DNA from: an uncultured Clostridia bacterium
GTDB taxonomy: Bacteria > Bacillota > Clostridia > Oscillospirales > Ruminococcaceae
Length of the DNA: 42,433 nt
Direction of reading: 5' to 3'
NCBI GenBank assembly: GCA_947627045.1
Contig: CANQUM010000016.1
Location: forward strand, 1 to 42,433
Part shown: piece after piece, positions 131 through 23,623 of the stretch
How positions within the stretch are numbered: position 1 is the stretch's first letter
Layout of the letters: each line of letters starts with the position of its first letter
Made by a program: the position numbers and the translations under genes
Notes under the pieces: generated by a model
The model's database searches: none
What the model saw: the letters and a program-made list of their open reading frames with translations, nothing else
What the model was told of the DNA's origin: nothing

Positions 131-165
131 AAATAATAAGCAAGTCCAGCAATGGGCTTGCTTAT
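131..165 (-). terminator. Rho-independent terminator of the BREX operon
   Basis: Positions 136-147 and 154-165 form a 12-bp stem (one G-T pair) around a 6-nt loop. Read on the minus strand the stem is followed by a T-rich stretch. It lies just past the last small ORF of the minus-strand operon, so it is the natural end of that transcript. Positions 1-130 are AT-rich and show no gene. Confidence 0.75.
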
Positions 166-733: not shown

Positions 734-1849
734 TTATGACGAAAGCACCTTAATAAGTGCTAAGGAAATTTCATGTGCATCTTGGATGGTGTTATTCCGA
801 CCAAGAGAAATTCGGATAGTTCCTTTGGCAGATTCATTATCAAGGTTGATGGCACGCAAAACATGAGATATTTCTGTATTATGACTGTCACAAGCTGACC
901 CTGTTGATACTGAAACGCCTAAAAGGTCAAGTCGGTGCATAATAGCTTCTCCATCTTTTCCAGGAAAAGAGAGGCTTATTAATCCTGGAAGGTTATTCGT
1001 TCCCCCATTACGAGAATATCGTATTTTAGCTGTTGTCAAATCAGCCAGAAGAGTATCTTCTAACGATTCTATGTGTGCGGTAAACTGGCTGATTCCGTCA
1101 CTGCTTTTCTTTAATGCAGCTGCCATACCCACAATAGCGGGTACATTTTCAGTACCTGCTCTATACCCGTATTCCTGGCTTCCACCATCCATAAAAGGCG
1201 ATACATATATTCCGTTACGAATGTAAAGAAATCCTATACCTTTGGGTCCATGAAATTTATGCGCTGAAGCCGAAAGCATATCTATACCAAGTTTATCCAC
1301 ATTAATTGGTATGCGTCCAACAGCTTGAACTGCATCTGTGTGAAAAGGAATTCCATGCTTGTGAGAGATATGAGACAGTTCTTTTATTGGCTGTATCGTT
1401 CCCAACTCATTATTGACGAACATGATAGATACAAGTCCGACATTCTCTGTAATGGCCATCTCTAAGCTTTGTGGTGTGACGATACCATGTTCCGTTGGGT
1501 TGATGTATTTTACGTTGCCACCAATATGTTCAAATGTTGCACAAGAGTTTAGGATTGCATGATGTTCAAAAGTGGATGTAATAATAAACTTTTCTGTGTT
1601 CCTACTCTTTATTGCCCAATTATCGCTTTCAGTACCGCCAGATGTAAAAAATATTTCTTCTGGTTGTGCACCGATACAATCTGCTATAGTTGTACGAGCT
1701 TCTTGAATAGCTTTTTGTGATGAACGCGAAAAGGCATATTTTTGAGAAGGATTGCCAAATTCATGAATCAAATATGGTTTCATCACCTCAAATACATCCA
1801 TATCAAGTTGTGTGGTTGCTGCATTATCCGCATAAATAGATCTTTTCAC
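734..1849 (-). CDS. Cysteine desulfurase, NifS/IscS/DndA family
   Basis: A PLP-dependent class V aminotransferase fold enzyme that takes sulfur from L-cysteine as a protein persulfide and passes it to an acceptor. At 371 aa it has the usual length. The N terminus reads IYADNAATTQ, the PLP lysine lies in SASAHKFHGPKG (about residue 200), and the persulfide cysteine lies in STGSACDSH (about residue 319). It is encoded in the BREX operon downstream of brxL, ten bases after the zinc-ribbon ORF. In Dnd phosphorothioation systems the same kind of enzyme (DndA) feeds sulfur to DndC, and this operon also encodes the DndC-like BrxP. I infer that it supplies sulfur for DNA modification. An ordinary Fe-S cluster assembly role, including loading the BrxP clusters, is the main alternative. 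Confidence 0.9.
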   Translation of the reverse strand: MKRSIYADNAATTQLDMDVFEVMKPYLIHEFGNPSQKYAFSRSSQKAIQEARTTIADCIGAQPEEIFFTSGGTESDNWAIKSRNTEKFIITSTFEHHAILNSCATFEHIGGNVKYINPTEHGIVTPQSLEMAITENVGLVSIMFVNNELGTIQPIKELSHISHKHGIPFHTDAVQAVGRIPINVDKLGIDMLSASAHKFHGPKGIGFLYIRNGIYVSPFMDGGSQEYGYRAGTENVPAIVGMAAALKKSSDGISQFTAHIESLEDTLLADLTTAKIRYSRNGGTNNLPGLISLSFPGKDGEAIMHRLDLLGVSVSTGSACDSHNTEISHVLRAINLDNESAKGTIRISLGRNNTIQDAHEISLALIKVLSS

Positions 1850-1858
1850 TCTATCACC

Positions 1859-2059
1859 TCACTTAAATAGTTTACAACCTTCTTCTTTAAAATCCTCAAT
1901 TTTGTCAAGCAGTTCATCAACAGTGCATTCAAGATACTCAGCAAGACAATCCAAACAATAATAATTTGAGATATTCTCACCAAGTAGTTTCTTGTTAATT
2001 CCTATTGTATCATTGTTTAAATCTGACTTACCGCATATTACACAGTTAACCATCGACAT
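1859..2059 (-). CDS. Small zinc-ribbon protein (66 aa)
   Basis: The protein has two CxxC pairs, CVIC near residue 6 and CLDC near residue 35, spaced as in a treble-clef or zinc-ribbon fold. An acidic helix (ECTVDELLDKIEDFKEEG) follows. The start overlaps the brxL stop by 14 bases and no independent ribosome site is obvious, so translation is probably coupled to brxL. A second ATG lies two codons downstream. I do not recognise a named family. Its position between brxL and the cysteine desulfurase suggests a structural, regulatory or sulfur-relay accessory of the BREX system. Confidence 0.65.
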   Translation of the reverse strand: MSMVNCVICGKSDLNNDTIGINKKLLGENISNYYCLDCLAEYLECTVDELLDKIEDFKEEGCKLFK

Positions 2060-3512
2060 TCAACTCACTAATGCCATAAGTAGGCACATCTTTTCCTTTA
2101 AACTCAGTATCAAGGATACCCATCTGCCTTTTTATGATTTGACGCATTTTGCGTGCAGGGCGCAAACAGTAACGCAGAAAACGCTTTGGATTGACATCTT
2201 CGGCAGTTCTAACATTCGGAAACAGTAATTTTAGGTATGCTGTAGCAATTCTCTTTATAGCTTCAGTATCACGCGTATCTGCCTTTTCTGGCACCTCTAC
2301 TAACTTATCAACAATTGCTCTGTAGCTCGCATCGTCTCTCAAAAGATGCAGAATAGAACAGAAATACTCAGAGTTTAGTGCCCACCCAGAAATCTTCAAA
2401 TCATCGTTCATTCTGGGAATATCCCACCCTTTTATGAATCCGTGGATACGATCGACAAGAGCGCTTTCCTGGAACAGAGAAGGTAATTCGGTAAACATAT
2501 TGCTATACTCGTCCATGTTCTCTTGTGAAATATTTCCGAGAAACACCACTCCAGCGTCGGACTTTCCTTCATAGCCGCCAATATTAAATGTTCCCTTTTC
2601 CATGTAACCCTGCATAATAGAACGCATCTCGTTTACATCATTAAATGTTACGAGCTTAACTTCATCAATAGCAACATAGTCATTGCCACAAATAAAACCG
2701 GGAGTTCTTCGTCCTGTATCGTAGAACATTTTTGCTCGTGTGATTTTTCCGCCATCGGTCAACATACCATACTTACTCACATTTCCGAATACATATGATT
2801 TTCCGGTCCCCTTGGGAGCAAGCTCAAGCAAATTTATTCGTTTTTCGACAAAAGGTAGAAGCCTAGTGATCATGATGAGCTTTTCTTCTTCATTTTGGTA
2901 TCCTGCAGCATTATAGTCAATTGAACCTAAAATCACATCAATCCACTCAGATACAGTAAACTCTTCTCTGGCATCTTTATAATAATCCAAGTCGACAGAG
3001 TATGGACAAAATTTGGTAAACCCAGTCATCTTAATTTTTCCGGGTATTTTCGGCTTAACAGAATCATCCGGGAAACGATACCCAAGTTCAATTACACCCC
3101 AGGTTTCCTGACCATTTACAAGTTCGCTTTTATATTCTTCCCATATATGAGGTTCAATGATTGTTTCTTTTGATGTTAATCCAAAATTTGGAATAGAGAA
3201 TGAGATTTCACTGGTTTTTATGTCAATATCAATAGCTACTTTTGTCAGTATCTGAACACGCTCATTTTCGTAAACAATACGATTCTTGATACTAATCCAT
3301 TCTTCTTTTCTAGGAAGATAGGTATGAACAAAATCTGCAACTTCTTCTACATCAAAATTACCCTCATCATCACTAAACTTTTTTAGAAGCCAGTCTCGAA
3401 GAAAAGAAGGCAAACTTAAGGAAGCAAAGAAATTGCTTTTCTTCAGATCCTTAAAGACGACCATCTCGCTAAAACACTCGCGAAGTTTTTCTTCCATGTG
3501 TTGTACCTCCAC
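2046..3512 (-). CDS. brxL: BrxL, Lon-like AAA+ protein of BREX (short form)
   Basis: An AAA+ ATPase related to Lon. The N-terminal part (residues about 1-140) includes LRDWLLKKFSDDEG and a PRKEEW motif typical of BrxL. Walker A is APKGTGKS at about residues 232-239, and a Walker B-like AIDEVK is at about residue 280. The protein is 488 aa, whereas type 1 BrxL proteins are nearer 650-700 aa with a C-terminal Lon-type domain. Here the C terminus ends soon after the ATPase lid and I see no Lon Ser-Lys region. The next ORF overlaps the stop, so no broken remainder follows. In type 4 BREX, brxL is one of the four defining genes with brxP, brxC and pglZ. It starts 3 bases after the pglZ stop. Confidence 0.85.
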   Translation of the reverse strand: MEVQHMEEKLRECFSEMVVFKDLKKSNFFASLSLPSFLRDWLLKKFSDDEGNFDVEEVADFVHTYLPRKEEWISIKNRIVYENERVQILTKVAIDIDIKTSEISFSIPNFGLTSKETIIEPHIWEEYKSELVNGQETWGVIELGYRFPDDSVKPKIPGKIKMTGFTKFCPYSVDLDYYKDAREEFTVSEWIDVILGSIDYNAAGYQNEEEKLIMITRLLPFVEKRINLLELAPKGTGKSYVFGNVSKYGMLTDGGKITRAKMFYDTGRRTPGFICGNDYVAIDEVKLVTFNDVNEMRSIMQGYMEKGTFNIGGYEGKSDAGVVFLGNISQENMDEYSNMFTELPSLFQESALVDRIHGFIKGWDIPRMNDDLKISGWALNSEYFCSILHLLRDDASYRAIVDKLVEVPEKADTRDTEAIKRIATAYLKLLFPNVRTAEDVNPKRFLRYCLRPARKMRQIIKRQMGILDTEFKGKDVPTYGISELNVDG

Positions 3513-3514
3513 CT

Positions 3515-5821
3515 TTACAGAATACCTTTGTTATTGCTATCCATACCTTCGTTTCTAACTTTGAGAGGAAGTTTCATTTTAATAGCATTGTCATCAGAAT
3601 AAACATCTACATAATATATTCTCGGACGTTTGATATCGGGCATATCGACCATATAATAATTGCTGTCTATTGGTTTTGAGTCATAATACTTGCCATCAAT
3701 TTGGATATTGATATTCGGTAGCATTTCAGATATATAAATCTTTATAACAGCCTTTTTTCTGAAGCTTACTGTTATTTCAGGCACATCATTAAGATCATAC
3801 GTTGATACATCCACAGGCATAATTAGAACTTCAATTTCACCAGGATGGTAAGAGAGCTCAATAATCGGAACTGTTACCTCCTCCAGTGTGGCACCCCCGT
3901 GAACTTCAACACTTGCTTTTCTACCACCTTTGAAACGGTCATAATTAGCAAGAGCCCAAAAATCACCTGCATCAGTAGCATAGCAGGGTTGTTCGTCAAC
4001 TTCGCTTTTCAGGCAACAACGCCCAGAGTGTTTACCTTTTTCTTTCATTTCCCATATGCCTTCGGTTTCATGAATTACTGCGAGCCGACTTGCCCCGTGG
4101 TCGGAAATCATAATTGCTTTTTTTATTGAACCAGATGCTAGTTTTTCCTTAATTTTAGTCAATACCTCTCGAATGATATCAAGCTCTTTCGACAAATGGA
4201 ATGGTAGCTTCGTTTGTTGATAGTCATAATTATCCTTACCGTGATGTTTAATCTCATCAATATCTTTAACAGAAATAACCGGATATTCGCTGTCTGCAAA
4301 TATCTCCAAAAATTCTTTGTTTTTAGATGTGATAGACGGAAGTTCACTACGACAAATAGAAATCTTTGCCATTAGATTGAGTTCTTTGCACACAGTCATA
4401 ATAAATCCAAGATATTCTACTCCCATTGCATCCATGAAATAAAGTTGGGCACCAACTTTATTAATTTTCTCAATTAAAGAAGAGCGAGGAGGCAGAAGAA
4501 GGTTATACTCACGTTTTTCGGCCTGATCCATGACAAAAGTTTCGAACTCAGGAAGAATCCTGTTTATTATTTTTTGGTATTTATATAACTCGAAATACTG
4601 GTTAAAAATATCATGTTTGAAGTGATATGCTGATAAGTAAGCAGCTAAATCAGAGTAGATAAGCTGAAGAATAGTAATAAGATCTTCCTTTGCGAATTCA
4701 TATCCATACTTGTCTAATATGAAGAAAATCTGCTCTTTCTCTTTTGTTGTGCTATCCGTTAGGTAGTATATAGCATTTTTGCCCTTGCTTAATATGACTT
4801 TGCAATAATCGACCACCTCGTCAAGCGGATTACCAAGCCAATTTAGTAACTGTTTCCTTTGCTTATAGTATCGCATAAACCTTTTGTTTTTTGGCTCTAG
4901 ATTCAATATTGACCGATATAACTGCCTAATAAGATCATTTTTTTGTTCAGCTGATATTGCCGCTTTATTTAAACACCAGTTGTTAGGAGCCCCGAAGATT
5001 TTAAGTGCAGTGAAATAGAGCCATTGTTGATCACTATCAAAGGTAGGATAATTTTGAATAACAAGATCAAGCGTATTATAATTACCGTAAAGCGAATTAA
5101 CAACATCTGCCCATGAGTTCTTGTTAGCGAATTGTTGCAACGCATACGCCCATTGGTTTTCTGTCCCAAGAGTTTCGTTTATATTTGATGTAGTTTTGTC
5201 AATAGTACAAAGAATATCATAAGCTTTGTTGAGATTTGTTATAGCGATCAAGGATGAAGGAAAATAATCACGTTTCTTGCTCGTTATGACATATGCTGTT
5301 TCCACAGTTTCTTTTTCGAGATCCGCTAAATGATCGATTCCGTATATTATTTTATCCTCTTTCTTAAATACAAACTTATCAGTTGTAAAAATAAGCGAAG
5401 GTTTGGTATCCTTTGAATCGTCTATTACGACAATCCTATTTTTGAACCGTGGATCATTGAATGAAAGATACTTTTTGCACTGGTAAGTTAACAAAATAAT
5501 ATGTCCAGTGGGACACATTGACAAAACACTCTTCAAATTATCCTTAAGATACTGTTCGCCCTTGAGCTTCAGATAAATACTAAGTTCAGTCACAAAAAGG
5601 GTGCCTGTATTTTCTGACAACTCATTAAATAGTACATCCATCTGAGGAAGCTCATCTTTGGAGCAATATTTATTTGCTGAAATAAATATTGAACTTCCCA
5701 CATTGTAGTGCGTCTTAATAGCCTGCAAATCCTCAATGTTTTGTACGTCTACTATTAATGGCTGAACATTACCTTTAGAGAGGTGGCTATTTATTTTTTT
5801 GATTGCATTATCAATACTCAT
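3515..5821 (-). CDS. pglZ: PglZ-domain protein of BREX
   Basis: A 768-aa protein of the PglZ family, the signature gene of BREX, related to the alkaline phosphatase superfamily. The PglZ core is in the second half. A likely first metal site is in YFMDAMGVEY (about residue 462), and a second metal-binding cluster is in ISDHGASRLAV (about residue 570), followed by a Cys/His-rich segment (GKHSGRCC). A C-terminal beta-rich tail follows ELSYHPGE. The N-terminal 400 residues have no motif that I recognise. The gene sits 12 bases after brxC and 3 bases before brxL, so all are co-transcribed. PglZ is required for BREX activity in characterised systems, but its biochemical role here is not visible from sequence. 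Confidence 0.88.
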   Translation of the reverse strand: MSIDNAIKKINSHLSKGNVQPLIVDVQNIEDLQAIKTHYNVGSSIFISANKYCSKDELPQMDVLFNELSENTGTLFVTELSIYLKLKGEQYLKDNLKSVLSMCPTGHIILLTYQCKKYLSFNDPRFKNRIVVIDDSKDTKPSLIFTTDKFVFKKEDKIIYGIDHLADLEKETVETAYVITSKKRDYFPSSLIAITNLNKAYDILCTIDKTTSNINETLGTENQWAYALQQFANKNSWADVVNSLYGNYNTLDLVIQNYPTFDSDQQWLYFTALKIFGAPNNWCLNKAAISAEQKNDLIRQLYRSILNLEPKNKRFMRYYKQRKQLLNWLGNPLDEVVDYCKVILSKGKNAIYYLTDSTTKEKEQIFFILDKYGYEFAKEDLITILQLIYSDLAAYLSAYHFKHDIFNQYFELYKYQKIINRILPEFETFVMDQAEKREYNLLLPPRSSLIEKINKVGAQLYFMDAMGVEYLGFIMTVCKELNLMAKISICRSELPSITSKNKEFLEIFADSEYPVISVKDIDEIKHHGKDNYDYQQTKLPFHLSKELDIIREVLTKIKEKLASGSIKKAIMISDHGASRLAVIHETEGIWEMKEKGKHSGRCCLKSEVDEQPCYATDAGDFWALANYDRFKGGRKASVEVHGGATLEEVTVPIIELSYHPGEIEVLIMPVDVSTYDLNDVPEITVSFRKKAVIKIYISEMLPNINIQIDGKYYDSKPIDSNYYMVDMPDIKRPRIYYVDVYSDDNAIKMKLPLKVRNEGMDSNNKGIL

Positions 5822-5832
5822 ACACTACTTCC

Positions 5833-8800
5833 TCATTCTTCCTTTATAATCTCCATACCAACAATCATATTCTCCTTGATGAGTTCTTTAAGATATCTCT
5901 TCACCTTGGAAACATCCATTTTATCAATTTTTTCTAAAGCTCGATCGCAACCAGACTGCACATATTTTGCTTCGGCCATCTGTCTGAGCTTTTTATCAAC
6001 TTCCGGCAAAGCAAACCACTCATAAGGTTCTGCTGTAATATGACCGTCAAGGTAGTTCTTGACTTCTTCAATATCTGAAAGCATGGTGGAATATCCCTTG
6101 ATGATGTTTGTGCTAAAAATACGATCCAGCACTTCAGGATCGTTCATTTTATCAAAGAAGGTTGCATTCTCTATAAATTGAATAGCCTTGTCAATTGAAA
6201 GAGCATCAGGATGTGCTTGATTTATAGTACCAAATGCGGATCGAGCCTTTTGCAATTCATCATCGCTGATGAGGCAGAGAATAGGCATCAAATTCTTTTT
6301 TGACCACTCTCTAGGAGAACTGGTTCCTGTTTTATCGCGCCACAGTTTCTTGAGACGTTCATTACCGAGATTATTCCTATATGCCTGCGATTTCTGATTA
6401 ACAAGGTTAATATATTCGGATTTCTCAGCAGTAAATGTACCAGCAGGAATTGTATGGTACAGCTCTAGGATCTCTTCATCACTAAATCCATCAAGATAGT
6501 AGGAACATACCCTCTTAAAAGTCTCGACTTGGTTATTGCGGAATGCGATAAATGCGGTTCCATGAATACGTAATAAGTCAAGGAACTTTTGCTTTTGTGA
6601 ATCTAAAATCTGCCCAGACTTCTTTATAGAAAGAAGCAATTCAAGAAATGGTCCCAAATCATCAAAATAGTTTTTTGCAGCTGCATATGAAATGCGGATA
6701 TACTGGCATTTATCACACCATTCCGCAACTACTTCATCAAAGGAGACGGTGCGGTCTACGACCTTGTTGCTTTCGTTTATGATTTCGTATTCGAGAATTA
6801 CTTCAAGGATTTTCTGCTGCGCAGTCTCGACATTCCATACCCAGTTCGCTGCATCGGCATCAAATTTACGGCGAAGAACATTAATATACTGCCCGTTATC
6901 CCCAATCTCTGCAGCAAGTGCAGGTAACCGACCATCCTCAAACTGAGAGAGATAGATGCGCATACCTTCTGTGCAATTTTCTTTAGATAGAATAGACTTT
7001 AAATCCTCAGAAGCTTTTTCATTTGCAATGCAAATGCGACCGATTTCTATAGCAATATCACTTTCTGTCTTTGAACCACCTAAATTATAGCTATTTGCAA
7101 TGCCACAGAAGTTATCAATTAGCATATCAAGGACTTCTTTATTTACACTGATTTCACAGGAATCAAGAACATATTTCAACGTCCAAACAGGAAAAGAAAG
7201 CTCTTTCATCTTGCTACGAATACGCTCTCTTGTTTGTTCTACAGATGTACAGAGATTTTGAGGAATGCCAAATGCTACGGAGGTAGCCTCATTAAAAGCT
7301 TTTTCTTCGTCAGTCATAGCTACGATATATTTTTCTTTATATCGTGGGTTCGGTGTAATTTGCAGATTGATAATTTCCGCTACCATTTCCTTGAGTTTGT
7401 TTACATCAAGGGCATCGTTGGTTAGGCCGTCACTCCAGCTATATGAACCATTTGCATACTCTTTAAGCAGAAAGCCCATTATAAAGGCAGTCAAGTTGCA
7501 TGGCATAAAGCCATAAGGAGCGACTTTTAAAGAATCATAAATCGTTTTAATGGAAATACGATTGCCATCCTTAAAAGCTTTACTAATCATAGTATCAACT
7601 TTGATTTTAATTCTGGAAATAAGTGTATTGGGATGATCTATCCAATACTTTTCTACGAGCCATGCATCTTTCAACGCATTTTCAAGTTTGGTTGCTGGGC
7701 TTCCAGATAGGAATGTGCCCGTTGTCTTTTGGTTTGCTCCACAGCCAACACCCTGCTTTAAGCTGCTGGGAGTAAACATATTTGCAATAACATTGTAAGC
7801 TGATTCCAAACATTCCGGGAATTTTGTTTTATTGATTTCTGCCAAAACACCGTAAAGGGCTTCCATAGAGGTTACACGTTCACCATCAGATTTCTCTGCG
7901 GTATACACGATAAACTCACCGTCACCAATTCGTATCTTCCACTTTTTGAGAGAGTCTTTGGCATTATTTGCGTATTGTGTAGCGAGTGCGTTATCTTTAC
8001 CCTGTTGGTACATGGACTGTGCCATATCGTCTCGGTATTGGTTATAACCATCCTTGCCAAAAGGCGTAGTAGTGGCATCAACGAAAATCATATGATAGCT
8101 GCCATCTTTGAGGGCAGCTCGAATTTTCTTACCGACAGCTACACTCTCATTATCGTCTTTAGCAAAGCAGACAACAGCAATTATTTTATTCTCAAAGTTC
8201 GTTTCTTGATTGCGCAGCTGTTTGATTTGCATATCAAAGTCCGCAGCAGAAGCATAGCGAAGCTCATAACGTAGTTTTAAAGCACCACCAAGTGTAACTG
8301 CATCAGTGACGGAGGTTTTGTCTATTAATTGTTCCGTAATAAGAGAAGTAGTTGTCTTTCTGTCGATTTCATCTTTGAACTTATCAAGTTCTGCACCGCT
8401 GACTTCATTCACATATGCGTTATACTGGAATTTGCCTCCACCTAGCTGCTTCTTGAAAAGCACTTTATCACGAACCAATTTTTCTGCGCAACGTCCTGCA
8501 GCGCCATCCATGTCAGAGCCTTCAAATGCGTTATTTACATTTTTCTCATTAGGAATGAAAAGTTCAACAGAATCGCCAGCGTGTTGGGAAATTGCTTGCA
8601 GTAGCAGAACGGTCTGTAGAACTCGTTTCTCATCGTTAGCTAGCCTTTGATTTGCTCCAAGAGTAAAATAGTCAAGGACAGAGCGAATGTCATGTGCAAG
8701 AAAATCTTTTCCCTTATCATAAAAGAACATCCACAACATATCAATTGTGAGGAGAGGATTCTCATCCTCAGGACCGTAATTATCAATGAACCACTGGAAT

Positions 8801-10038
8801 CCCTTAATTTCGTCACCACGGTCATTTTTGATAAAGTCAAACATACTCCGCTGATTTGAATCAAAGGCTGAGGAGATATGCTTCAATAACAACGCTGTAT
8901 ATGGATGTATCGGAAGGATATCCTTTAGTTCTTTATCATCAATATGTGCAATGCTCTTCACAAGTTTTCTAGACTCCCGTGTGCGGTCCTGCAGATCATC
9001 TGTGATTATTTCCCAATCCTGTAGCACTTCCGGGTCAGTATTCTTTTCCATTGCGGCACCCATCAACTGGAAGGCAATATTCTCCGGCAGGCTGATCTGA
9101 CTATGTGGATTTACAAAACGTCCGTTCAGCTTGATAAAATCCTGATCACGGTCAGAAAATAACCCTGTACTGACATGAGTTACTAGAATGAAATAGAAGG
9201 GATCTGTTTCGCTGATTTCAATCAGCTCCTGGAATCCAGTAAGATTACGGGTGTTGTTATAGAAATATTCCGTAAATTCATCCCAGATGAAAACAATCGC
9301 CTTTAACTCATTGATCTTAATTGTTTCTTTGATCCAGTTTGTCAGATCTCGGGGAGTCATAGTAAATGCTTTAATCTGACGTTCCCGTGCAACCTTAAAA
9401 ATCTTTTCCATTAAGGTGTGGAGGGCAACATCTGAATATGTATTTAGTTTTTCAATAATATTGTCAACAGTGTCACCACCGAAGAGATTTGAATAGCTGC
9501 CTTCAACATAGATACCAAAGCTCTTTTTATTTTCGGAATCAGAAAGATAACGGATCACAGACTCTTTCAAAGAATCTGATCCCTTGTTTTCTATTCCAGA
9601 GGCAGTAAAAGCGTGCTCAATACTTTCCTGAATTGCAAGGACAAGATCTTGGTCTCCATGAATACTTGAAGAACCATAACGATGTACAGTGAGAACTTTA
9701 CCGCTGTTTTTTATTCGTTGAAGATTATTGCAAAGATCATTGTCAAGATTATATTTTTCAAAGTATGTTTTGGTATCTTCTTCAGACGCGTCAAGCAATT
9801 TCTTTAGAGTCAGAACAGCATGGGATTTACCTGTACCATAGGCACCTTCCACCCAGATAGAGAGTTTCTGTTTACGGTCAAGTACGCTAACAGTATTTTT
9901 GATAAGCTTCACAAAGGTTTTGTGAGGAAAGAACTTCTTCCACATATCTGGGTTAGCGTTAATAACAGCTTCATTTACTGCAGAATAATAATCTGGATCA
10001 ATATTAAAATAATGTCTGTATTTCTCAAGTATCGGCAT
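5833..10038 (-). CDS. brxC: BrxC/PglY-like large ATPase of BREX
   Basis: A 1401-aa P-loop ATPase. The N terminus (EKYRHYFNIDPDYY) leads to Walker A GAYGTGKS at residues 65-72 and a Walker B-like IVFIWDEF at about residue 250. A very long, mostly helical remainder follows, as in BrxC/PglY proteins (about 1100-1400 aa). The start ATG at 10038 is preceded by GAGGAAAAA. The gene lies 16 bases after brxP and 11 bases before pglZ. In BREX this ATPase is part of the modification and restriction machinery. There is no internal stop or frameshift, so it appears intact. Confidence 0.88.
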   Translation of the reverse strand: MPILEKYRHYFNIDPDYYSAVNEAVINANPDMWKKFFPHKTFVKLIKNTVSVLDRKQKLSIWVEGAYGTGKSHAVLTLKKLLDASEEDTKTYFEKYNLDNDLCNNLQRIKNSGKVLTVHRYGSSSIHGDQDLVLAIQESIEHAFTASGIENKGSDSLKESVIRYLSDSENKKSFGIYVEGSYSNLFGGDTVDNIIEKLNTYSDVALHTLMEKIFKVARERQIKAFTMTPRDLTNWIKETIKINELKAIVFIWDEFTEYFYNNTRNLTGFQELIEISETDPFYFILVTHVSTGLFSDRDQDFIKLNGRFVNPHSQISLPENIAFQLMGAAMEKNTDPEVLQDWEIITDDLQDRTRESRKLVKSIAHIDDKELKDILPIHPYTALLLKHISSAFDSNQRSMFDFIKNDRGDEIKGFQWFIDNYGPEDENPLLTIDMLWMFFYDKGKDFLAHDIRSVLDYFTLGANQRLANDEKRVLQTVLLLQAISQHAGDSVELFIPNEKNVNNAFEGSDMDGAAGRCAEKLVRDKVLFKKQLGGGKFQYNAYVNEVSGAELDKFKDEIDRKTTTSLITEQLIDKTSVTDAVTLGGALKLRYELRYASAADFDMQIKQLRNQETNFENKIIAVVCFAKDDNESVAVGKKIRAALKDGSYHMIFVDATTTPFGKDGYNQYRDDMAQSMYQQGKDNALATQYANNAKDSLKKWKIRIGDGEFIVYTAEKSDGERVTSMEALYGVLAEINKTKFPECLESAYNVIANMFTPSSLKQGVGCGANQKTTGTFLSGSPATKLENALKDAWLVEKYWIDHPNTLISRIKIKVDTMISKAFKDGNRISIKTIYDSLKVAPYGFMPCNLTAFIMGFLLKEYANGSYSWSDGLTNDALDVNKLKEMVAEIINLQITPNPRYKEKYIVAMTDEEKAFNEATSVAFGIPQNLCTSVEQTRERIRSKMKELSFPVWTLKYVLDSCEISVNKEVLDMLIDNFCGIANSYNLGGSKTESDIAIEIGRICIANEKASEDLKSILSKENCTEGMRIYLSQFEDGRLPALAAEIGDNGQYINVLRRKFDADAANWVWNVETAQQKILEVILEYEIINESNKVVDRTVSFDEVVAEWCDKCQYIRISYAAAKNYFDDLGPFLELLLSIKKSGQILDSQKQKFLDLLRIHGTAFIAFRNNQVETFKRVCSYYLDGFSDEEILELYHTIPAGTFTAEKSEYINLVNQKSQAYRNNLGNERLKKLWRDKTGTSSPREWSKKNLMPILCLISDDELQKARSAFGTINQAHPDALSIDKAIQFIENATFFDKMNDPEVLDRIFSTNIIKGYSTMLSDIEEVKNYLDGHITAEPYEWFALPEVDKKLRQMAEAKYVQSGCDRALEKIDKMDVSKVKRYLKELIKENMIVGMEIIKEE

Positions 10039-10054
10039 AGGTAGTTTTTCCTCC

Positions 10055-12406
10055 TTATAGTAATGTCAGGACATCGGAAGATGTCTTCTCGGAATTCAAA
10101 GTGATACTATCTAAATCGAGATTAAAGCTTGTTGTGATGAACTCAGGATAATTGATGGATAGACCGTTCAGAAGCTTTGTCATTGTATCACGATCCAATC
10201 CAAATATCTCAGTAGGGCTGATTCCATCGCTATCCACAGTGTGATCCAGCAGACGAGAGAGGGTGAACTGATAATAATCACCGCAAGCTTCTGCGAATTT
10301 GTAAAGAGAATAAAGGATAACAATAGGTTCAGGTTGACGCCAAGGCGTACGTGTAATTGAAATCATACTTTTTTTGATTTCACCGTTTCTGTTTTGTTTT
10401 TCATTTATTTCAGGAATGCCAAATCCAATTTCTTTGAGAGAGGCATTTGTGTCAAGAATAACTTTAAATCCATTCCAAAATTCACCTCTAGCTTTTTTTC
10501 CTCCATCCTTTTTCGTTGGATCTTCGCCCATATCTAACAAAAGCTGCGCCTCGATATAGTGTTCGTAGAAAGGAATGTTTTTGATATACCAATTAAAAGC
10601 AGGTGAATAGGCTAGATTACAGAGAATGAGCGCCCAAGAAGTTACAGAGCTAACTCCTTGACCTTGAATGAAGGAACCAAATTCGGTTAATTTTTTCTTA
10701 GATGTTATACCTGCATCATTCATTAAAACAAACATTGTATCTGTTTTTCGGTTGCCAGGTTCAAAAGATTGATCCTTAAGAAATTTCTTAATCCAATTGG
10801 CGTCAACTCCAACACTCAGATAACGATTCAGTCCTTTTAGTGATTTCATACTAGTACTTCCTTTCACTGAGTTATAATATAAACATCCGCTAATTATTTT
10901 AAGGCAAGCATGACAACGTATACACCTATCGGATATTGTTAACCCACCACTATTCATAGTGATGTTTCTACTAGGACATTCTGCTTCACATGTTTTGCAA
11001 TTAATACAATATAGGGTTTTTGCAAGAATGTTCTTAAAATAAAAGATAAATTGGATTGCATTTTTTGTTTTTCCAAGGTTTTCTATTTTAAATACGGTTT
11101 TATCATCATAGTTAAATAAAGTACATTTACGTATTGCACCATTATACTCCAATAAATATTCCGTGTCGGAATTCTCATAAAGCGATCCTATTGTTTTATA
11201 CCAGGTTTTCCATTCTTGGCGAAGTTTTATTACGGTGAAAATGTGGTAATCCTTATTTTCTTCATACTCAAAACGTTCCGGTTCTGTAAAACGCAATTCA
11301 CGACCGCTTAATCTTGTTTTCCAACCACCTGTTTCAAGAAAGATACGAGCATTATCTCCTGACAAATCTTTACTACTGTTTTCAACTATCTTTTTACAAT
11401 ACATATCCACTACTTCCGGAAAACATTGGTGCTTTATAAATTCATGTTTATCAGAAGAATTTGGGCACATTATGCATCCCACACGGTTAAAACCAAATTT
11501 ATAAGCTTTGTTTAGTAGTAAATTGTGTGCATAGATAAGCAAAAAAACTTCCGCAGATGACCACTCCAGTATAGGGTGATAACTGTATTGTCCAGGGAGT
11601 TTTTTTCCTAAACTAAGTTCGTCATAATCTGCACGAGCAGTACTTTCGTCTCCTCGAACACCAGTAATCATCATAGAATGAATTTTATTCATTTTATGTA
11701 TTTCGCATAATTTATTAATTACAGGAGCTGTTTTATGCACAGTACAACACCATCTTACTTTGCGTGCTGGGGCACCAAACAAATCCCATGAATCTGTCGC
11801 CTTCATGTTAGATGTTGCTGAATAGAAAGAAATATTATGCTCTTTACAGTAGGTTTCTGTTTTTTCTACAACTGCATCTGTTGTTGGAAATTCCATATCC
11901 GTATTACTAAAGAGGACTTCGAAAGCATTGTGTGGAAGTGCTCGTTGAACTAGGTCAAGAGTAACAATGCTGTCCTTGCCACCACTAAATGCTACATAGA
12001 AAACATCGACCTTGTCCTTGTAGCTTATATAAGTGTTGTAAATCTTCTTTATCGTATCTTGCGATAGCTTTTCAAGTAAATCACGATTCTTTTCTACCAT
12101 TGCCGGAACATCAACAAAGCGAAGAGCTCCACCATTTGGCTCGGGATCATCTGTGATAATAATCTCTGGAGCGGTATATAAAGAGCCGCCTTTCGTTTTG
12201 GCAACAAGTCGACCTCTATAAAAATAATTATTTGCCTCTGCCCACATATATGGGTAGGTATCATTCTTGGCATAATTCCAATACTTATCAAACCTAAGAA
12301 TGTCTAGTTCTTTATAATACACGGGACGAGGTTCTTTGCTAAATGACAGCGGAGAGCTGTTTAGCAAGAGCCCTCCAGTAGTTGGATCCCAGCTATATGA
12401 ATACAT
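10055..12406 (-). CDS. brxP: BrxP: PAPS-reductase/DndC-like protein with ferredoxin domain
   Basis: This 783-aa protein is the hallmark of type 4 BREX. It contains a PP-loop ATP pyrophosphatase motif, FSGGKDSIV (about residues 139-147), and a cysteine pair in RWCCTVHK (about 217). A further cysteine pair is in GCIMCPNSS (about 313), as in DndC and PAPS reductases. A two-cluster ferredoxin insert at about residues 463-505 has CxxCxxCxxxCP followed by CxxCxxC. The N-terminal 100 residues and the C-terminal 270 residues do not match anything I can name. In Dnd systems DndC is the PP-loop Fe-S enzyme for sulfur insertion into the DNA backbone. I infer a similar role, with electrons passing through the ferredoxin clusters. 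The gene begins 3 bases after the stop of the upstream 643-aa ORF. Confidence 0.88.
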   Translation of the reverse strand: MYSYSWDPTTGGLLLNSSPLSFSKEPRPVYYKELDILRFDKYWNYAKNDTYPYMWAEANNYFYRGRLVAKTKGGSLYTAPEIIITDDPEPNGGALRFVDVPAMVEKNRDLLEKLSQDTIKKIYNTYISYKDKVDVFYVAFSGGKDSIVTLDLVQRALPHNAFEVLFSNTDMEFPTTDAVVEKTETYCKEHNISFYSATSNMKATDSWDLFGAPARKVRWCCTVHKTAPVINKLCEIHKMNKIHSMMITGVRGDESTARADYDELSLGKKLPGQYSYHPILEWSSAEVFLLIYAHNLLLNKAYKFGFNRVGCIMCPNSSDKHEFIKHQCFPEVVDMYCKKIVENSSKDLSGDNARIFLETGGWKTRLSGRELRFTEPERFEYEENKDYHIFTVIKLRQEWKTWYKTIGSLYENSDTEYLLEYNGAIRKCTLFNYDDKTVFKIENLGKTKNAIQFIFYFKNILAKTLYCINCKTCEAECPSRNITMNSGGLTISDRCIRCHACLKIISGCLYYNSVKGSTSMKSLKGLNRYLSVGVDANWIKKFLKDQSFEPGNRKTDTMFVLMNDAGITSKKKLTEFGSFIQGQGVSSVTSWALILCNLAYSPAFNWYIKNIPFYEHYIEAQLLLDMGEDPTKKDGGKKARGEFWNGFKVILDTNASLKEIGFGIPEINEKQNRNGEIKKSMISITRTPWRQPEPIVILYSLYKFAEACGDYYQFTLSRLLDHTVDSDGISPTEIFGLDRDTMTKLLNGLSINYPEFITTSFNLDLDSITLNSEKTSSDVLTLL

Positions 12407-12408
12407 AG

Positions 12409-14340
12409 TTATTTTGTTCCTTTCCTATTTCTATAGGTGTTCGCCTGGATCAGAATTTTTTCAATATTTGAGTACTTCCTACGTGCAAGGTATCCTTGCT
12501 CGACTAAGAATGCTAAAGCCTGGTCTCTTTTGAGAGTAACATCGTTCTCAGCTAAAACGGTAGAAAGAAGATCATCAAAAGTCTGGATGTCAGATTCAAT
12601 TTTTACAATCGCCCCGACACAACAGTTACGGTTAAAGCCTGAATGAAATAGACGATACCTTTTACTGTAAGCGTACACATAATGTTCTAAGAGATAAATG
12701 TTCCACGGAAATCCAGCATCGGGAAATGAGCCAAAGCCATTAACTTTTCCAATAGCTAGATAATCACTATTGCAGAATCGATCAATAGCTCTGTCAGTTT
12801 CTTCAATGCGGAATTGTGCCATATTTTTAGTGACAAATTGCTCTCGACTTATTCTTAGCGAATTGTCGTACACCGCCTCAAAGTAGATTATAGAGTTCAT
12901 CTCCGACGCAAGGGTCGTAAGTTCAGCCACTGTGAATCCCTGACGGCTTTTTGCATAGTTACCAAACACATCGGTCATAGAAATTACATGATCAAGACTG
13001 CTAATGATATTACCTTTGAAAGAAAAACGCTCTTTCAAATGGTATTTCAAGACACCACGCATTCCCATTGCGGAAATAGGTAGATTGTTCTCTATGATAA
13101 AAGGATATCGAGCGTGGATTATTTCTATTAGCTCATTTCCGCTCAAAAACAGTTTGTCGCTAATGCTCTCTCTTATAAGATTAGCAATGTTCTCGATTTC
13201 TTCCTCAGAGAGATGTACAACATTTACATGAAAATAATGACTTTTTCCGTTATTTACGAACTCGCCACTCATTCCCAAGATCTGCATAACTTTATTTTGT
13301 GGAATGTGTGATAGAGTTTTGCATATCTCGGAGCATTCCACAGGAACTCCTGTAATTATCAGGTAGTTTTTGACTTCCTGTAGTGGATTCACTTGAGTCA
13401 AGGTGTCCTTGCAAATGTATTGGCTCTCAAGGTGGAATTCCCCGTCATTATAAAATGCAATATACGCCTTTAGCATACTTGCATCATAAATGTAATAGTC
13501 CAAAAAGATCTCAGAGAAAGATCGAAACAGAGCTTCGTAATAAACAGCTTGTTTACCTTCGTTTAAACTTGCTCGTATAAATGAGAAGAGCTTGTTCCGC
13601 ATTTCAGCAGGAAGCATAGCAGCGGGGGCAAAGATTTTTTTATCATAACGAATGCCGCAAGCGAGGAGCATAGCTTCAATATCTGCATCCGAAATTTTCG
13701 GGGTTTCGTTATTTATTGCTTTATAATATCGGCGGAATTTTTTCATGTCAAGTGGTGAACCTATACGGAAACCACGCACAAACTTCTCTGCCAACACTTT
13801 TTCAAATAGTACGGTGTTCACACGGGTCTTTGGCAATGCAATCATAGTTGATTTTGATACAGGTGTTCCTGTCTTGAAATCGTAATTGATTTCGTAATAT
13901 TCAAGTAATTTTGAAATGGCCGCCGAAAGGCGGTTGTGCTGACGTTTATTAAGCGCAACAAACTCTTTGTTTCGGAATAATGCTGCTACTGCTTTAGTGC
14001 AAAGATCGTAATCATCAGTAATGAGCATTTGGGATTCGAGATTATGTTCTTTTGCAAAAGTTTCTGCGCATCTGATCGCCGATGTATAATTTCGTATTGT
14101 CGAAGAGGCAAACCCATTCTGTAATAACCATTGTGAAAATTCATCGCGGTTATGATTACTATTGTGTATTGTAATATTTTTTGATCGTTCTTCCATTGTT
14201 GACTTACCTGTCATCCTCATTTTTATTGCATTCCCGGATATTGGTCTTATATATTTATATATGTTGATTGCTTCGGCAAATAAACGCGTTGTAGGCTTCA
14301 TTATGGTTTTTACAAAACATGCAGACTCCATACTTGCCAC
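12409..14340 (-). CDS. Unrecognised 643-aa protein, first gene of the BREX operon
   Basis: The first ORF downstream of the operon promoter. Near its start (about residues 65-160) is a helical region, FSQWLLQNGFASSTIRNYTS followed by an AISKLLEYYEI helix. It looks like the SAM-like core-binding domain of tyrosine recombinases, but I see no R..H-R-Y catalytic domain. The rest is helical with several segments that could be winged helices (for example around FTVAELTTLASEM and DQALAFLVEQGYLARRKYS at the C terminus). I infer a DNA-binding role, perhaps target recognition or regulation. The full frame opens at a GTG (14340) with no clear ribosome site. ATG codons at 14220 and 14196 are alternatives, and MEERSKN from 14196 may be the real start. 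Its stop is 3 bases before brxP. Confidence 0.7.
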   Translation of the reverse strand: MASMESACFVKTIMKPTTRLFAEAINIYKYIRPISGNAIKMRMTGKSTMEERSKNITIHNSNHNRDEFSQWLLQNGFASSTIRNYTSAIRCAETFAKEHNLESQMLITDDYDLCTKAVAALFRNKEFVALNKRQHNRLSAAISKLLEYYEINYDFKTGTPVSKSTMIALPKTRVNTVLFEKVLAEKFVRGFRIGSPLDMKKFRRYYKAINNETPKISDADIEAMLLACGIRYDKKIFAPAAMLPAEMRNKLFSFIRASLNEGKQAVYYEALFRSFSEIFLDYYIYDASMLKAYIAFYNDGEFHLESQYICKDTLTQVNPLQEVKNYLIITGVPVECSEICKTLSHIPQNKVMQILGMSGEFVNNGKSHYFHVNVVHLSEEEIENIANLIRESISDKLFLSGNELIEIIHARYPFIIENNLPISAMGMRGVLKYHLKERFSFKGNIISSLDHVISMTDVFGNYAKSRQGFTVAELTTLASEMNSIIYFEAVYDNSLRISREQFVTKNMAQFRIEETDRAIDRFCNSDYLAIGKVNGFGSFPDAGFPWNIYLLEHYVYAYSKRYRLFHSGFNRNCCVGAIVKIESDIQTFDDLLSTVLAENDVTLKRDQALAFLVEQGYLARRKYSNIEKILIQANTYRNRKGTK

Positions 14341-15462: not shown

Positions 15463-15507
15463 CTCCAAAACCGAGTGCCGAGGGTTCAAATCCTTCTGCC
15501 CCTGCCA
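15463..15507 (+). other. 3' fragment of tRNA-Trp(CCA), probable attachment-site scar
   Basis: The anticodon loop CTCCAAA (anticodon CCA at 15465-15467) is followed by the ACCGA half-stem. A perfect T arm follows (GAGGG 15480-15484, loop TTCAAAT, CCTTC 15492-15496). Then come the 3' acceptor strand TGCCCCT, discriminator G and encoded CCA (15505-15507). The 5' half is absent: upstream bases do not pair with the anticodon 3' half-stem and no AGGGGCA acceptor strand or D arm exists. A tRNA 3' end without its 5' part is the usual mark left at the far end of an element integrated into a tRNA gene. The element would lie to the left, that is, the BREX side. Confidence 0.7.
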
Positions 15508-15826: not shown

Positions 15827-18800
15827 ATGAAAAACTTAAAATCAAGAATCATAAGCATAATGATAGTAATGTCTATGATTGCAACAGGTACAGCACCAAA
15901 AGTGTTCGCCGAGGTTATTAATGAAAGTCCTGTTTCAGAGACAAGCTCTTCTTCACAGAGTGATGAGCAAACATCTTCTGATGAACCTGAATATATAACA
16001 GGTGAGATTGAAGAACTTAGAACAGAAAATAGCAAAACTTACGAAAAGTCAGACGGAAGCCGTGTGGCAGTTGTTACAGAAGAACCGGTACATTTTTATG
16101 ATGAGAAAAATGAAGAATGGCAGGAATACGATAACCGTCTATCATATGATGAAAATAAAGAAAAATATGAAAGTAATGAAACAGGTTCTGATATGAAAGT
16201 GTCATTGCCAAAGAATTTTGACGGGCAAAGTAATATTGAAGTTGAGTTAGATGGATATAAAGTATCAATTATACCGATTGATATAAAATCTTCTGCGTCA
16301 AAAAAGGTAAATAATAAGAAAAATATAAAAAGTAATAAGGTAAAAGAACTTAAAAAATATGATTTGGAGGATTATGTATCAGATTCAGTACTTGGCGGGA
16401 AAGTGGAATATAGTCAAGATGATAATACAAGTATAGAATATATATTCAGCGGAAGTAAACTGAAGGAGAATATTGTTCTTTCCAAAATACCCGAAAAAAA
16501 GCAAAAGTATTCATTCAGAATTAACTCTGACGGGTTAACGGCAAAGCTTAATAAAGATAATTCAATTAAATTGCTGGATAAAGACAAAAAAGAAGTGTTT
16601 ACTATTCCGGCACCTTATATGTATGATGAGTGTTTTGAATTTTCTGATAATATAAAAACAAATCTAAAGAAAGATGGTTCAGAGTATATTTTGACATATA
16701 CTCCGAACTATAAGTGGTTGTCAGATGAAAACAGAACATATCCTGTGACTATTGATCCAACAATAACTTCAGCACTATATGCTGATAAAATAGTCGACAC
16801 ATCAGTATTTAGTGCTACACCATATAATTATGATACATTTACTACCCTATATGTAGGTGCTCTATCTAACAGAGATTGCATAATGGATGCGTATATAAAT
16901 TTTAAGGGCTTGCCTGTTATGGATAGATTTTGGACAATTTCAAACGCTAAACTTAACCTCAAGACCGCTACAAATGTAAGTAATGAAATCAATGCGTATA
17001 AAATAACTTCTGACTGGGAGGCAAGCAATATTAAATCTAATCTTCCATCAGTGAGCAACACAATACTTGATGTATGTTATATACCTGCTATCACAAATGC
17101 AAAAGTAAATTGGGATATAACAAACGCTGTAAGTGATTGGTATTATGAAGGAAATAACTATGGAATTAAGCTCTCATCACCGTATGCTCAAAATAGTCAA
17201 TCAATGTTTTATTCTGCGGAAACAGCAAATGCTGCTGATAAACCATATTTGTCAATAGAGTATAAGACAATATCGGCAGCACAGATTGAAAACAGCAGAA
17301 CTATTGATATTGGCAGAGCAGGAACAGCAACAATAAATGACTTTTCCGGAAATGTTGTATTAACAAGAGAAGATATAGGTGTTGACGGGAATGTTATGCC
17401 TGTAAATATCTCTATGATATATAACTTAAATTATTTTAACAGTGCAGAATTCGGATTTGGGTTTAAAACAAATTATTCACAGTCAATAAGTTTTAGAAGT
17501 GATATAGGTCTAAATAAGTTTTATGAATATTATTGCGGTGACGGAAGTGTTGTATACTTTGACTATGATGCTGAGGCCGGAGAGTATATAGACCGAAGTG
17601 GAAGAGGGTATAGCTTTAAATATAAGGATACTACTACAACAGGATATGACGATATAATTGTTACCGATCCAAATGGAGATGAACATTATTTTGATCAGTA
17701 CGGAAGACTTTCACAAATAGTTGGTACTCAAGGTACTGCAAACCCAGCAATTACAGTTGCATATACAGGTGACTATACCAAGATTTTTGAAATAGACTAT
17801 ATAATAGACGGTTCAGGTAGAAAATATGATTTCAACTACTCAAACGGAAGACTGACGGATATTTCATATTATGGAAAGTCATCTTCAGTTTTGAAAAAAG
17901 TTTCATATGAATACGACAGCATTTCTAACCTCAAAAAGGTTACATATCCTGACGGGAAATCTGTAAGCTATAGCTGGAATTCACATAATTTGATTTCTGT
18001 GAACAATACTGATGGTTATCATGTGAACTTTTCTTATACCAGTTATGATTTAAACAAGCAAAGAAGAATAAGCTCTATAAAAGAATACGGAAGTAGCGGA
18101 ACAAAGGGTGCAGATATAAGTGTAACTTATTCTCATTATCAAACAAAGTATACAAATAATAATACAGGTGATACAGAAACATTAGTGTTCAGCAATGAAG
18201 GGGATTTAATATCAACATATAATTCAGAGGGTCAGGTTACTGCTAATGAGTATGCAAAAGGCTCTGGAACGCATGGGGTAAACAGTCTTGTAAATACTTT
18301 TGAACACAAGAAAAGTGAAACTAATTTAATTAAAAACGGGGAATTTGAAAATAATTTGTCTGGCTGGACTCAAGTTAATGGAGCAAATCATCTATGGAGC
18401 AGTTATGGTCATCCAGGAAACGGCGGTTCTATAGAATTAAAATTTCCAGATGCGATTGTTTTTCAGAAAATAGATGTATCAGGAACAAAAGGCGATACTT
18501 ACGATATAGGGGGTTGGGTAAATGCAAATGCTTCACCTCGTTATCCGATTAATATAACAGTTTCATTCTATAATGCAACAAATTCTGTAGGTTCGCATAT
18601 TATTAGCTTTAATCCATACTGCACTGATTGGCAGTATGTAATGAAAAATGTCGAGGCTGACGAAGATTATACTCATTTCTTTGTTACTATAAATTATTCA
18701 GATCAGATTAATTGTGCTTACTTTGACGGTGTTGTTGTTTACAAAGCCGAAAGTGCAGTCAATGAGAATGATGATTCAGAATCAGATACTGATGCGGATA

Positions 18801-22762: not shown

Positions 22763-22997
22763 ACCAACCTGCAGGGGGATATAATAGCAATACTTGATAT
22801 GGACTGTAATTTAGTGGCAGAGTATGAATACGACTCATGGGGCAACTGCACTATATTAAAAAACACAGATAATATAGCTAATACAAATCCTCTTAGGTAT
22901 AGGGGTTATTATTACGATAGTGATACAAATTTATATTATCTGCAGTCGAGATATTATGATGCTAATATCGGTAGGTTTATTAATGCGGATGAGGTAG
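22763..22997 (+). repeat. Displaced copy of the Rhs core (copy of 20396-20630)
   Basis: A gap-free 235-base duplicate of the end of the Rhs core. The first part carries scattered substitutions, while the last 90 or so bases are identical to the main gene. It encodes the segment TNLQGD through GRFINADEV and leads into a different C-terminal tip. An in-frame stop (TAG) lies just upstream, so the fragment is cut off from any Rhs N terminus. Confidence 0.9.
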
Positions 22998-23623
22998 TTT
23001 TCTTAGGAGCAAACGGCGGAGTAGTTTCAAATAATTTGTTTGCTTATTGTGATAATAATCCAGTAAATAATGTTGATTCAACTGGACATATTGCGGCAAA
23101 TATTGTAGGTGCAGTTATAGGAGCAATTGTAGGAGCTGTAGGTGGGTACTTTTTGACTAATTGGATAGCTAATAAACTTGGTCTAAAGAGTTGGAAGAGA
23201 AAACTTTTTGTATGGGGATTAACGGCAGTAATTAGTGCAGCAGCAACAACTGTTGGATATTTTATAGGTCCATATATTGCAAAAATCAGTAACAAATTGA
23301 TTAGTGCTATTCGTTATTCATTTAAGCCCAAATTCGGAACTAAGATTGGTCGTTTAGGTACATTAGTTAAAAATACAAAACCTACAATAAAAGGATTAAC
23401 TAATCATGGATTGAATCGAATGGCAGAACGTGGTATTTCTAAGAAGCTTGCGCAGCAGATTGTCAAAAATGGATATGCGATTTCTCAATCAGGTGGTAAA
23501 GTTTTATACTTTACTAAAGCAGGAGTCGTTGTTTTGAATCAATCTGGTCAAGTTGTAACAGCATATTCTGCTAAGTATTTTGATATAGCTATGCAAGGAA
23601 TAATAAAATTATTTTTTGGGTGA
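22799..23623 (+). CDS. Orphan Rhs tip: core remnant plus alternative toxin domain
   Basis: This 274-aa frame starts inside the displaced Rhs core copy at an ATG without a ribosome site. It is probably silent or poorly expressed unless recombined onto the main gene. Residues 1-65 are Rhs core. NPVNNVDSTGH is the usual boundary motif. A glycine/alanine-rich hydrophobic segment (about 100-165) follows. The C terminus (about 200-274) has HGLNRMAERGISKKLAQQI and GGKVLYFTKAGVVVLN, which resembles DUF4258 / BECR-fold ribonuclease toxins. That family call is by motif only. The gene overlaps the next ORF if that one starts at GTG 23620, and lies 5 bases before its ATG at 23629. Confidence 0.7.
   Translation: MDCNLVAEYEYDSWGNCTILKNTDNIANTNPLRYRGYYYDSDTNLYYLQSRYYDANIGRFINADEVVFLGANGGVVSNNLFAYCDNNPVNNVDSTGHIAANIVGAVIGAIVGAVGGYFLTNWIANKLGLKSWKRKLFVWGLTAVISAAATTVGYFIGPYIAKISNKLISAIRYSFKPKFGTKIGRLGTLVKNTKPTIKGLTNHGLNRMAERGISKKLAQQIVKNGYAISQSGGKVLYFTKAGVVVLNQSGQVVTAYSAKYFDIAMQGIIKLFFG

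Follow-up and report, generated by a model that had tools for sequence, protein, structure and literature searches.

Type 4 bacteriophage exclusion (BREX) systems have recently been grouped with defenses that mark DNA with sulfur. One account, which cites Yuan et al., counts brxPCZL among the phosphorothioate-synthesis genes together with dnd and ssp (PMC11931770). Another describes type 4 BREX as relying on phosphorothioation; it names a cysteine desulfurase, present in 255 of 457 taxa, as a possible sixth core component, and likens a small zinc-finger protein to helix-turn-helix (HTH)-type transcriptional regulators (PMC12839542). Sulfur marking by type 4 BREX is already published, and is not new. 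The present analysis concerns an operon in a 42,433-nucleotide stretch of DNA from an uncultured Clostridia bacterium (assembly GCA_947627045.1, contig CANQUM010000016.1), hereafter the window. It is very probably a type 4 BREX defense operon whose DNA mark is sulfur, and it lies on a probable tRNA-Trp island. The operon itself is one further example of a published kind, and the comparison with its relatives matters more. From that comparison a joint reading is advanced tentatively, with somewhat less than even confidence: the first gene, orfX, would encode an unrecognized core subunit; BrxP residues 161–680 would form a recognition cassette that is shuffled between operon lineages and that predicts or changes the marked motif; and phages would have captured a shortened, zinc-finger-fused BrxP, perhaps marking or shielding their own DNA against sulfur-based defenses. 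These additions are comparative, being firm for orfX conservation and for the incongruence of the BrxP middle, and speculative for function. No description of orfX, BrxP recombination or phage BrxP was found in a literature search that excluded the primary paper (Yuan et al., 2026) and all supplements.

The operon is intact on the minus strand, with all frames open, in the transcription order orfX, brxP, brxC, pglZ, brxL, a 66-aa zinc-finger open reading frame (ORF) and the desulfurase gene, at intervals of 2, 16, 11, 2, −14 and 9 bp (Table 1). The initial annotation, made from the sequence alone, had placed BrxP, BrxC, PglZ, BrxL and the desulfurase in one operon at 734–14,340; open frames, full-length model matches and the shared strand confirmed this, and the genes within that range are real, although orfX had been left unnamed and the zinc-finger ORF missed. 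By these models, brxP, brxC, a BREX-4-type pglZ and brxL, the genes that define type 4 BREX, are present in one operon. The annotated absence of a PglX-type methyltransferase also held, with no methyltransferase family match in the seven proteins scanned, a set that does not include the zinc-finger ORF.

Conservation was assessed across 80 brxP loci from named genomes, the best 80 of at least 335 relatives and hence biased toward BrxP like that of the window. BrxP matched the PADLOC model over residues 1–782 (731.8 bits) and PAPS_reduct at 2.2e-30, and it carries SGGKDS, WCC and CxxCP motifs together with two ferredoxin-type cysteine sets. SGGKDS is found in 78 of 80 BrxP rows (the window and 79 loci; L088 and L093 are the exceptions), and the eight ferredoxin-type cysteines are invariant in all 34 aligned rows, with a Fer4_9 match at residues 466–503 falling just under the Pfam cut-off. 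DUF4007 was matched in seven of the 34 aligned full-length rows (best 4.7e-5); the window copy, itself without a match, is alignable with them to the C-terminus. The Walker A motif of BrxC (G..G.GKS) occurs in the window copy and 61 of 68 rows, and the DHG motif of PglZ in 59 of 59. BrxL spans positions 3–479 of the 482-position PADLOC model (708.5 bits) and reaches 412.3 with NCBIfam TIGR02688, where the cut-off is 329.3, and the desulfurase retains its lysine (HKFHGPKG) and cysteine (GSAC) sites. A 93-aa ORF at 437–718 was considered as an operon partner and dropped, having no tblastn match in the 80 loci.

The closest likeness is to type 4 BREX as described in PMC12839542: all defining genes are present, no methyltransferase was matched, and both the desulfurase and the small zinc-finger gene recur. 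The operon differs in its conserved first gene, which was not found among the named type 4 components in the portion available, and in its mosaic BrxP. The Ssp system (SspABCD) corresponds in its desulfurase, PAPS-reductase-like enzyme, DUF4007 part and BrxC/SspC-type ATPase (PMC12839542). However, in the present operon the putative DUF4007-like part would be fused to BrxP, PglZ and BrxL are present, and BrxC scores 948.7 bits with its own model against 70.3 with SspC. No match to SspE or SspFGH was obtained in the seven operon-region proteins scanned, the rest of the genome not having been searched for them. With Dnd (DndABCDE) and Pbe, the operon shares its sulfur source and PP-loop enzyme class, and a homolog of the orfX core also heads two Dnd-Pbe islands (L154 and L204) and adjoins Pbe-type genes, the only ones before the contig end, in L155. 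The window BrxP scores 732 bits with the BrxP model and 40 with that of DndC; genome-wide, the brxP locus is the sole DndC match (40.6 bits), and neither DndD nor DndE was matched in the seven proteins. By gene content, the operon belongs neither to Dnd (DndC with DndD and DndE) nor to Ssp (SspABCD without PglZ and BrxL, and with SspE or SspFGH).

An exchanged middle segment in BrxP

The window BrxP was compared in 20-residue steps with two sets of relatives, set A (L046, L022, L026 and L027) and set B (L017, L018 and L044). Mean identity to set A was 76–94% to residue 160 (61% at residues 81–100), 2–61% up to residue 680 and then 70–96% over residues 681–780. Identity to set B was 57–90% in the left flank, 30–92% in the middle and 60–83% in the right flank. 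The window BrxC, PglZ, BrxL and orfX are nearest to set A, and the desulfurase is not especially near either set. By sequence comparison, BrxP is a mosaic in which residues 1–160 and 681–783 follow the operon lineage and residues 161–680 follow another. Such exchange extends beyond the window, as L037 and L063 share 90% identity in the flanks against 51% in the middle, and L022 and L046 84% against 43%.

Trees of the BrxP segments (24 rows chosen from the 80) and of BrxC (21 of those 24, with a quick search and a simpler model) point the same way. The middle tree unites the window with set B at support 100/100 and rejects its union with set A (difference in log likelihood, delta lnL, 867; p-value of the approximately unbiased test, p-AU, 5.7e-6). 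A clade of the window and set B is in turn rejected by the flank tree (delta lnL 156, p-AU 2e-64) and by the BrxC tree (delta lnL 2427, p-AU 1.4e-6), the latter recovering the window with set A (Shimodaira–Hasegawa-like approximate likelihood ratio test, 98). Furthermore, pairwise identities over 51 rows (the window and 50 of the 80 loci, with near full-length genes; L020 omitted as a near copy of L019) correlate with those of BrxC at 0.89 for the BrxP flanks, 0.88 for both PglZ and the orfX core, and 0.73 for BrxL, against 0.57 for the BrxP middle. Within the middle, residues 321–460 and 521–680 reach 0.43 and 0.41, and in shorter steps residues 321–640 correlate at 0.30–0.44. Low conservation alone is insufficient to explain this incongruence, because the orfX core follows BrxC although its mean identity is lower, at 0.24 against 0.39.

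Several points weigh against this interpretation. The flank tree neither recovers nor rejects the window with set A (delta lnL 22.7, p-AU 0.08) and is weakly resolved, with seven of 21 inner branches starred; the tested clades, including that of BrxC, were named after the identities had been seen; and other stretches also correlate poorly with BrxC, namely BrxL 241–320 (0.27), PglZ 161–240 (0.47) and orfX core residues 1–160 (0.51–0.55). In addition, exchanged segments can reflect escape from phage inhibitors, and such an arms race is the main alternative. As an observation in its own right, BrxL residues 241–320 lie below any BrxP step in these 51 rows.

The exchanged part begins just past the PP-loop and takes in the half of the catalytic domain with the CxxC, the pre-ferredoxin domain, the ferredoxin and the beginning of the DUF4007-like region. 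In Ssp, recognition is predicted to fall to SspB, the counterpart of DUF4007 (PMC10853773), and target-recognition domains for phosphorothioation were said in 2020 not to have been demonstrated (PMC7464106). A swapped recognition cassette fits both statements, and BrxP 161–680 may be an exchangeable cassette that sets the marked motif. A lineage-swapped cassette with clear borders makes the target-recognition question for phosphorothioation directly testable. Alternatively, sulfur marking would be kept with orfX as the specificity subunit, and the BrxP middle would be swapped to escape phage-encoded BrxP inhibitors. The length variation of orfX, the greatest in the operon (343–1488 aa among 68 with the start inside the contig), the family matches of some of its members (Sigma70_r4, RNA_pol_A_CTD, HARE-HTH or integrase SAM-like) and the capacity of arms races to produce bounded swaps would agree with this alternative. 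It is nevertheless considered unlikely, as the orfX core tracks the BrxC lineage and the swapped part of BrxP spans much of the catalytic and DUF4007-like region, the latter corresponding to SspB.

orfX, the conserved first gene

orfX was sought as the longest same-strand ORF ending between 800 bp before and 60 bp after the brxP start. In 75 of the 80 loci this gave a candidate of at least 300 aa, each matching a profile built up from the core of the window orfX. With the window sequence as its sole input, the first profile round had matched 70 of 76 rows (the 75 loci and the window); at least 400 of the 456 profile positions are covered in one stretch in 70 of 76 rows, the other six being partial, and tblastn with the window protein gave matches in 70 of 80 loci. 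Four of the loci without orfX (L047, L070, L089 and L096) have less than 600 bp upstream of brxP; in L064, no orfX-type gene was found in 10 kb upstream. The gene ends at most 20 bp from brxP in 61 of 75 loci, with a median gap of 6 bp. In a sample of 394 genomes from the window's order, brxP is present in 13 (E ≤ 1e-90, by which 13 of 33 matching genomes were kept and the rest taken as other PAPS reductases), and orfX lies within 0.8 kb in 12 of them. In the thirteenth (G295), an unassigned 299-aa ORF overlaps brxP and a transposase-like ORF, judged by eye, adjoins. Viral contigs with BrxP of full-length type (nine, one of them split) have orfX in six. A gene standing beside brxP in nearly all loci belongs in clones and deletions of such systems.

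The protein comprises a conserved core and a variable N-terminal part, and members of about 460 aa are little beyond the core. Across 73 aligned rows (the window present twice), Pfam matches were obtained to Sigma70_r4 (7), RNA_pol_A_CTD (5), phage-integrase SAM-like (4) and HARE-HTH (3) families, and these lay N-terminal of the core in the four members with positions seen, among nine scanned. In a profile self-comparison, the core gave an off-register alignment to itself of 268 columns (score 75.5, P 6e-9), against at most 20.7 in 20 column-shuffled controls and 21.8 with the reversed profile, which suggests a tandem array of HTH-like units. R496, D516, N547, E552 and E381 are conserved polar residues, among which no catalytic motif was recognized. 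Two other assignments were discarded: DUF4007/SspB, with no such family match and an hhalign probability of 1.5% between the orfX core and the BrxP C-terminus, and a PIN nuclease (E 0.006, 17.3 bits against a Pfam cut-off of 21.9). No plasmid relative was found at E 1e-3.

orfX probably encodes a DNA-binding core subunit that evolves with the BrxC lineage. Against this may be set that DNA binding is read from the internal repeat and from N-terminal family matches in a minority of members, and that the core also occurs apart from BREX. It was found in 24 of 391 genomes of the class, and 24 orfX-core regions from 22 genomes (9–20 kb each; the window's genome and G638 left out) comprised four with brxP, one Dnd-Pbe island (L204), 18 without a BREX, Dnd or Pbe match, and one (L209) without any ORF match. 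The core is therefore not specific to sulfur marking. These homologs without BREX neighbors, the first position of the gene in the operon and the sigma-factor region 4 and RNA polymerase alpha C-terminal-domain (alpha-CTD)-like domains of some homologs would suit a transcription regulator of the operon rather than a working subunit. This possibility is regarded as distinctly unlikely, since orfX is large and, in most loci, shares the strand of brxP at a distance of a few bp. Moreover, members of about 460 aa are nearly core only, so the core, and not the sigma-like domains, is the part that is kept.

The homologs of L154 and L155, next to Pbe-type genes, come from two genomes of the order sample; in that of L154, the core is preceded by alpha-CTD-like and sigma region 4 domains. 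Four of the 18 BREX-less regions (L194, L205, L206 and L207) have the homolog beside a conserved three-gene set, possibly another defense operon, whose 623–640-aa member looks GHKL-type ATPase-like by eye. Homologs of 788–917 aa with no BREX, Dnd or Pbe match nearby were seen in L193, L195, L196 and L198–L203.

The zinc-finger gene and phage-borne BrxP

The 66-aa zinc-finger gene lies 3' of brxL in all 59 loci with at least 350 bp to spare (56 under a strict rule, the other three overlapping brxL by up to 8 bp), and it is also kept in 13 loci without an adjacent desulfurase. Viral relatives of brxP were compared as well; of 36 viral loci found, 23 were kept and 13 weak partial matches dropped. 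In 13 of the 23, BrxP-like similarity stops near residue 515 and the DUF4007-like part is missing; in 11 of these 13, the shortened BrxP, about 39–40% identical to the window protein, ends in a zinc-finger domain (IMG/VR contigs L103–L105, L107–L113 and L117; for example, L111:10001–13535). Eight phage loci hold a shortened copy of another kind, with a zinc-finger coding stretch after it; in L109–L113 and L117 this copy stands in tandem with the fused gene. The BrxP motifs are kept in all shortened phage copies except the interrupted second copy of L117. The fused proteins are 58–100% identical to one another, some contigs being near copies, and therefore represent two or three phage types. 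Of ten neighbors scanned in L111 and L105, eight could be given a role from the PHROG family that they match (endolysin, tail, helicase, exonuclease, single-stranded DNA-binding, DNA methyltransferase), so these contigs are taken as phages. No BrxC, PglZ or BrxL was found near the 13 shortened loci, seven of which are only 4–7 kb long.

Because the fusion occurs in these phage loci, we infer that the small zinc-finger protein is a working partner of BrxP, whereas PMC12839542 likens it to transcriptional regulators. The shortened phage BrxP could, as a guess, mark the phage's own DNA. In L111, endolysin and DNA methyltransferase genes adjoin the fused gene. Elsewhere, a viral contig carries a type 4 BREX (L099:4100–12010) in which about 3 kb of other DNA separates the two pieces of brxP (6656–7096 and 10076–12010). 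Two human-feces scaffolds deposited as phage (MT835493.1 and MT835506.1; L221 and L222) carry an Ssp-like set with a PAPS-reductase-like protein, a DUF4007-like ORF (by eye), a BrxC-like ATPase, a desulfurase and a PbeA-like start.

Sulfur supply, proposed mechanism and genomic setting

The desulfurase scores near equally with the PADLOC models for SspA (426 bits) and DndA (422 bits), and lies under the NCBIfam equivalog cut-offs for both NifS and DndA. Its initial description as a NifS/DndA-type enzyme with intact lysine and cysteine stands for the catalytic sites, with "DndA-type" to be read as a class label and not as an assignment. The further proposal that this enzyme makes the system self-sufficient could not be upheld. 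Four other desulfurase-family matches occur in the same genome (61, 47, 34 and 27% identity), and of the 53 type 4 loci with at least 1.5 kb beyond brxL, 40 have a desulfurase within 1.2 kb; none was seen at that distance in the other 13, with about 2 kb covered. Because of this co-occurrence rate and the other desulfurases in the genome, the gene is not proof of self-sufficiency; it is a usual, probably replaceable companion of type 4 BREX. The rest of the earlier proposal, sulfur in place of methyl marking, is well supported by homology and probably right, and is already in print (PMC11931770; PMC12839542).

The sequences establish gene content, intact motifs and conservation; from homology and the literature, we infer the following chemistry and defense activity. 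Sulfur would be drawn from cysteine by the operon desulfurase or a housekeeping one and accepted by BrxP, an iron-sulfur PP-loop enzyme; BrxP and the BrxC ATPase would then replace a backbone oxygen by sulfur at a short DNA motif, and PglZ and BrxL would be directed against unmarked phage DNA. Other iron-sulfur PP-loop enzymes are active on RNA and on small molecules. Were BrxP likewise to sulfurate a target outside the DNA backbone, such as a base or tRNA, the mark would not be a phosphorothioate; this is very improbable given the attribution of phosphorothioates to brxPCZL (PMC11931770) and the gene correspondence of type 4 BREX with Ssp (PMC12839542). Decay or inactivity of the operon, to which the contig end at the left edge of the window and the NTDMEFPTT of the window BrxP (DTxMEFPDT or a near form in most relatives) might point, is similarly remote, since every frame is open and TDMEFPTT is common to L017, L018 and L044; the odd motif therefore goes with the cassette type, and BrxP decay was dropped.

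Table 1. Features of the operon and its surroundings, in window coordinates.
Feature	Position	Strand	Basis or remark
orfX, first gene, 643 aa, start codon uncertain	12409..14340	-	Without PADLOC, NCBIfam or at-cut-off Pfam family
orfX parts: conserved C-terminal core (residues 182–637), variable N-terminal part	within 12409..14340	-	
brxP, PP-loop PAPS-reductase-like sulfurtransferase, two ferredoxin-type cysteine sets, C-terminal DUF4007-like part	10055..12406	-	
brxP codons 161–680, exchanged cassette (proposed target-recognition part)	10367..11926	-	Sliding identity, trees, identity correlations
brxP PP-loop motif SGGKDS, codons 141–146	11969..11986	-	
brxP two ferredoxin-type cysteine sets, Cys 467–508	10883..11008	-	
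brxC, pglY-type AAA+ ATPase, Walker A intact	5833..10038	-	PADLOC BrxC 948.7 bits
pglZ, BREX-4 type	3515..5821	-	NCBIfam NF033445 (BREX_PglZ_4) 399.6 bits, cut-off 140
brxL, short form (N-terminal and ATPase domains, no Lon domain)	2046..3512	-	Pfam BrxL_N, BrxL_ATPase
66-aa zinc-finger protein, CxxC...CxxC, 14-bp overlap with brxL end	1859..2059	-	
Cysteine desulfurase, NifS/DndA/SspA class, Lys and Cys sites intact	734..1849	-	
Stem-loop 3' of operon, possible terminator	136..165	.	13-pair stem, T-rich tail; consensus match only
45-bp copy of tRNA-Trp 3' end, likely island attachment site	15463..15507	+	

The tRNA-Trp copy beside the operon is identical at 44 of 45 positions to the 3' end of an intact tRNA-Trp elsewhere in the same genome (contig C54, 5266–5341), and the operon therefore probably lies on an island integrated at tRNA-Trp. 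At positions 1–210 of C54, the sequence resembles a tyrosine-integrase C-terminus. The stem-loop beyond the desulfurase gene was listed for the plus strand, and inspection by eye shows a T-rich tail on the minus strand. Immediately beyond the island edge, a secreted YD-repeat (rearrangement hotspot-like) protein of 1821 aa is encoded at 15827–21292, followed at 22799–23623 by a second, short YD-repeat C-terminus, both judged by eye.

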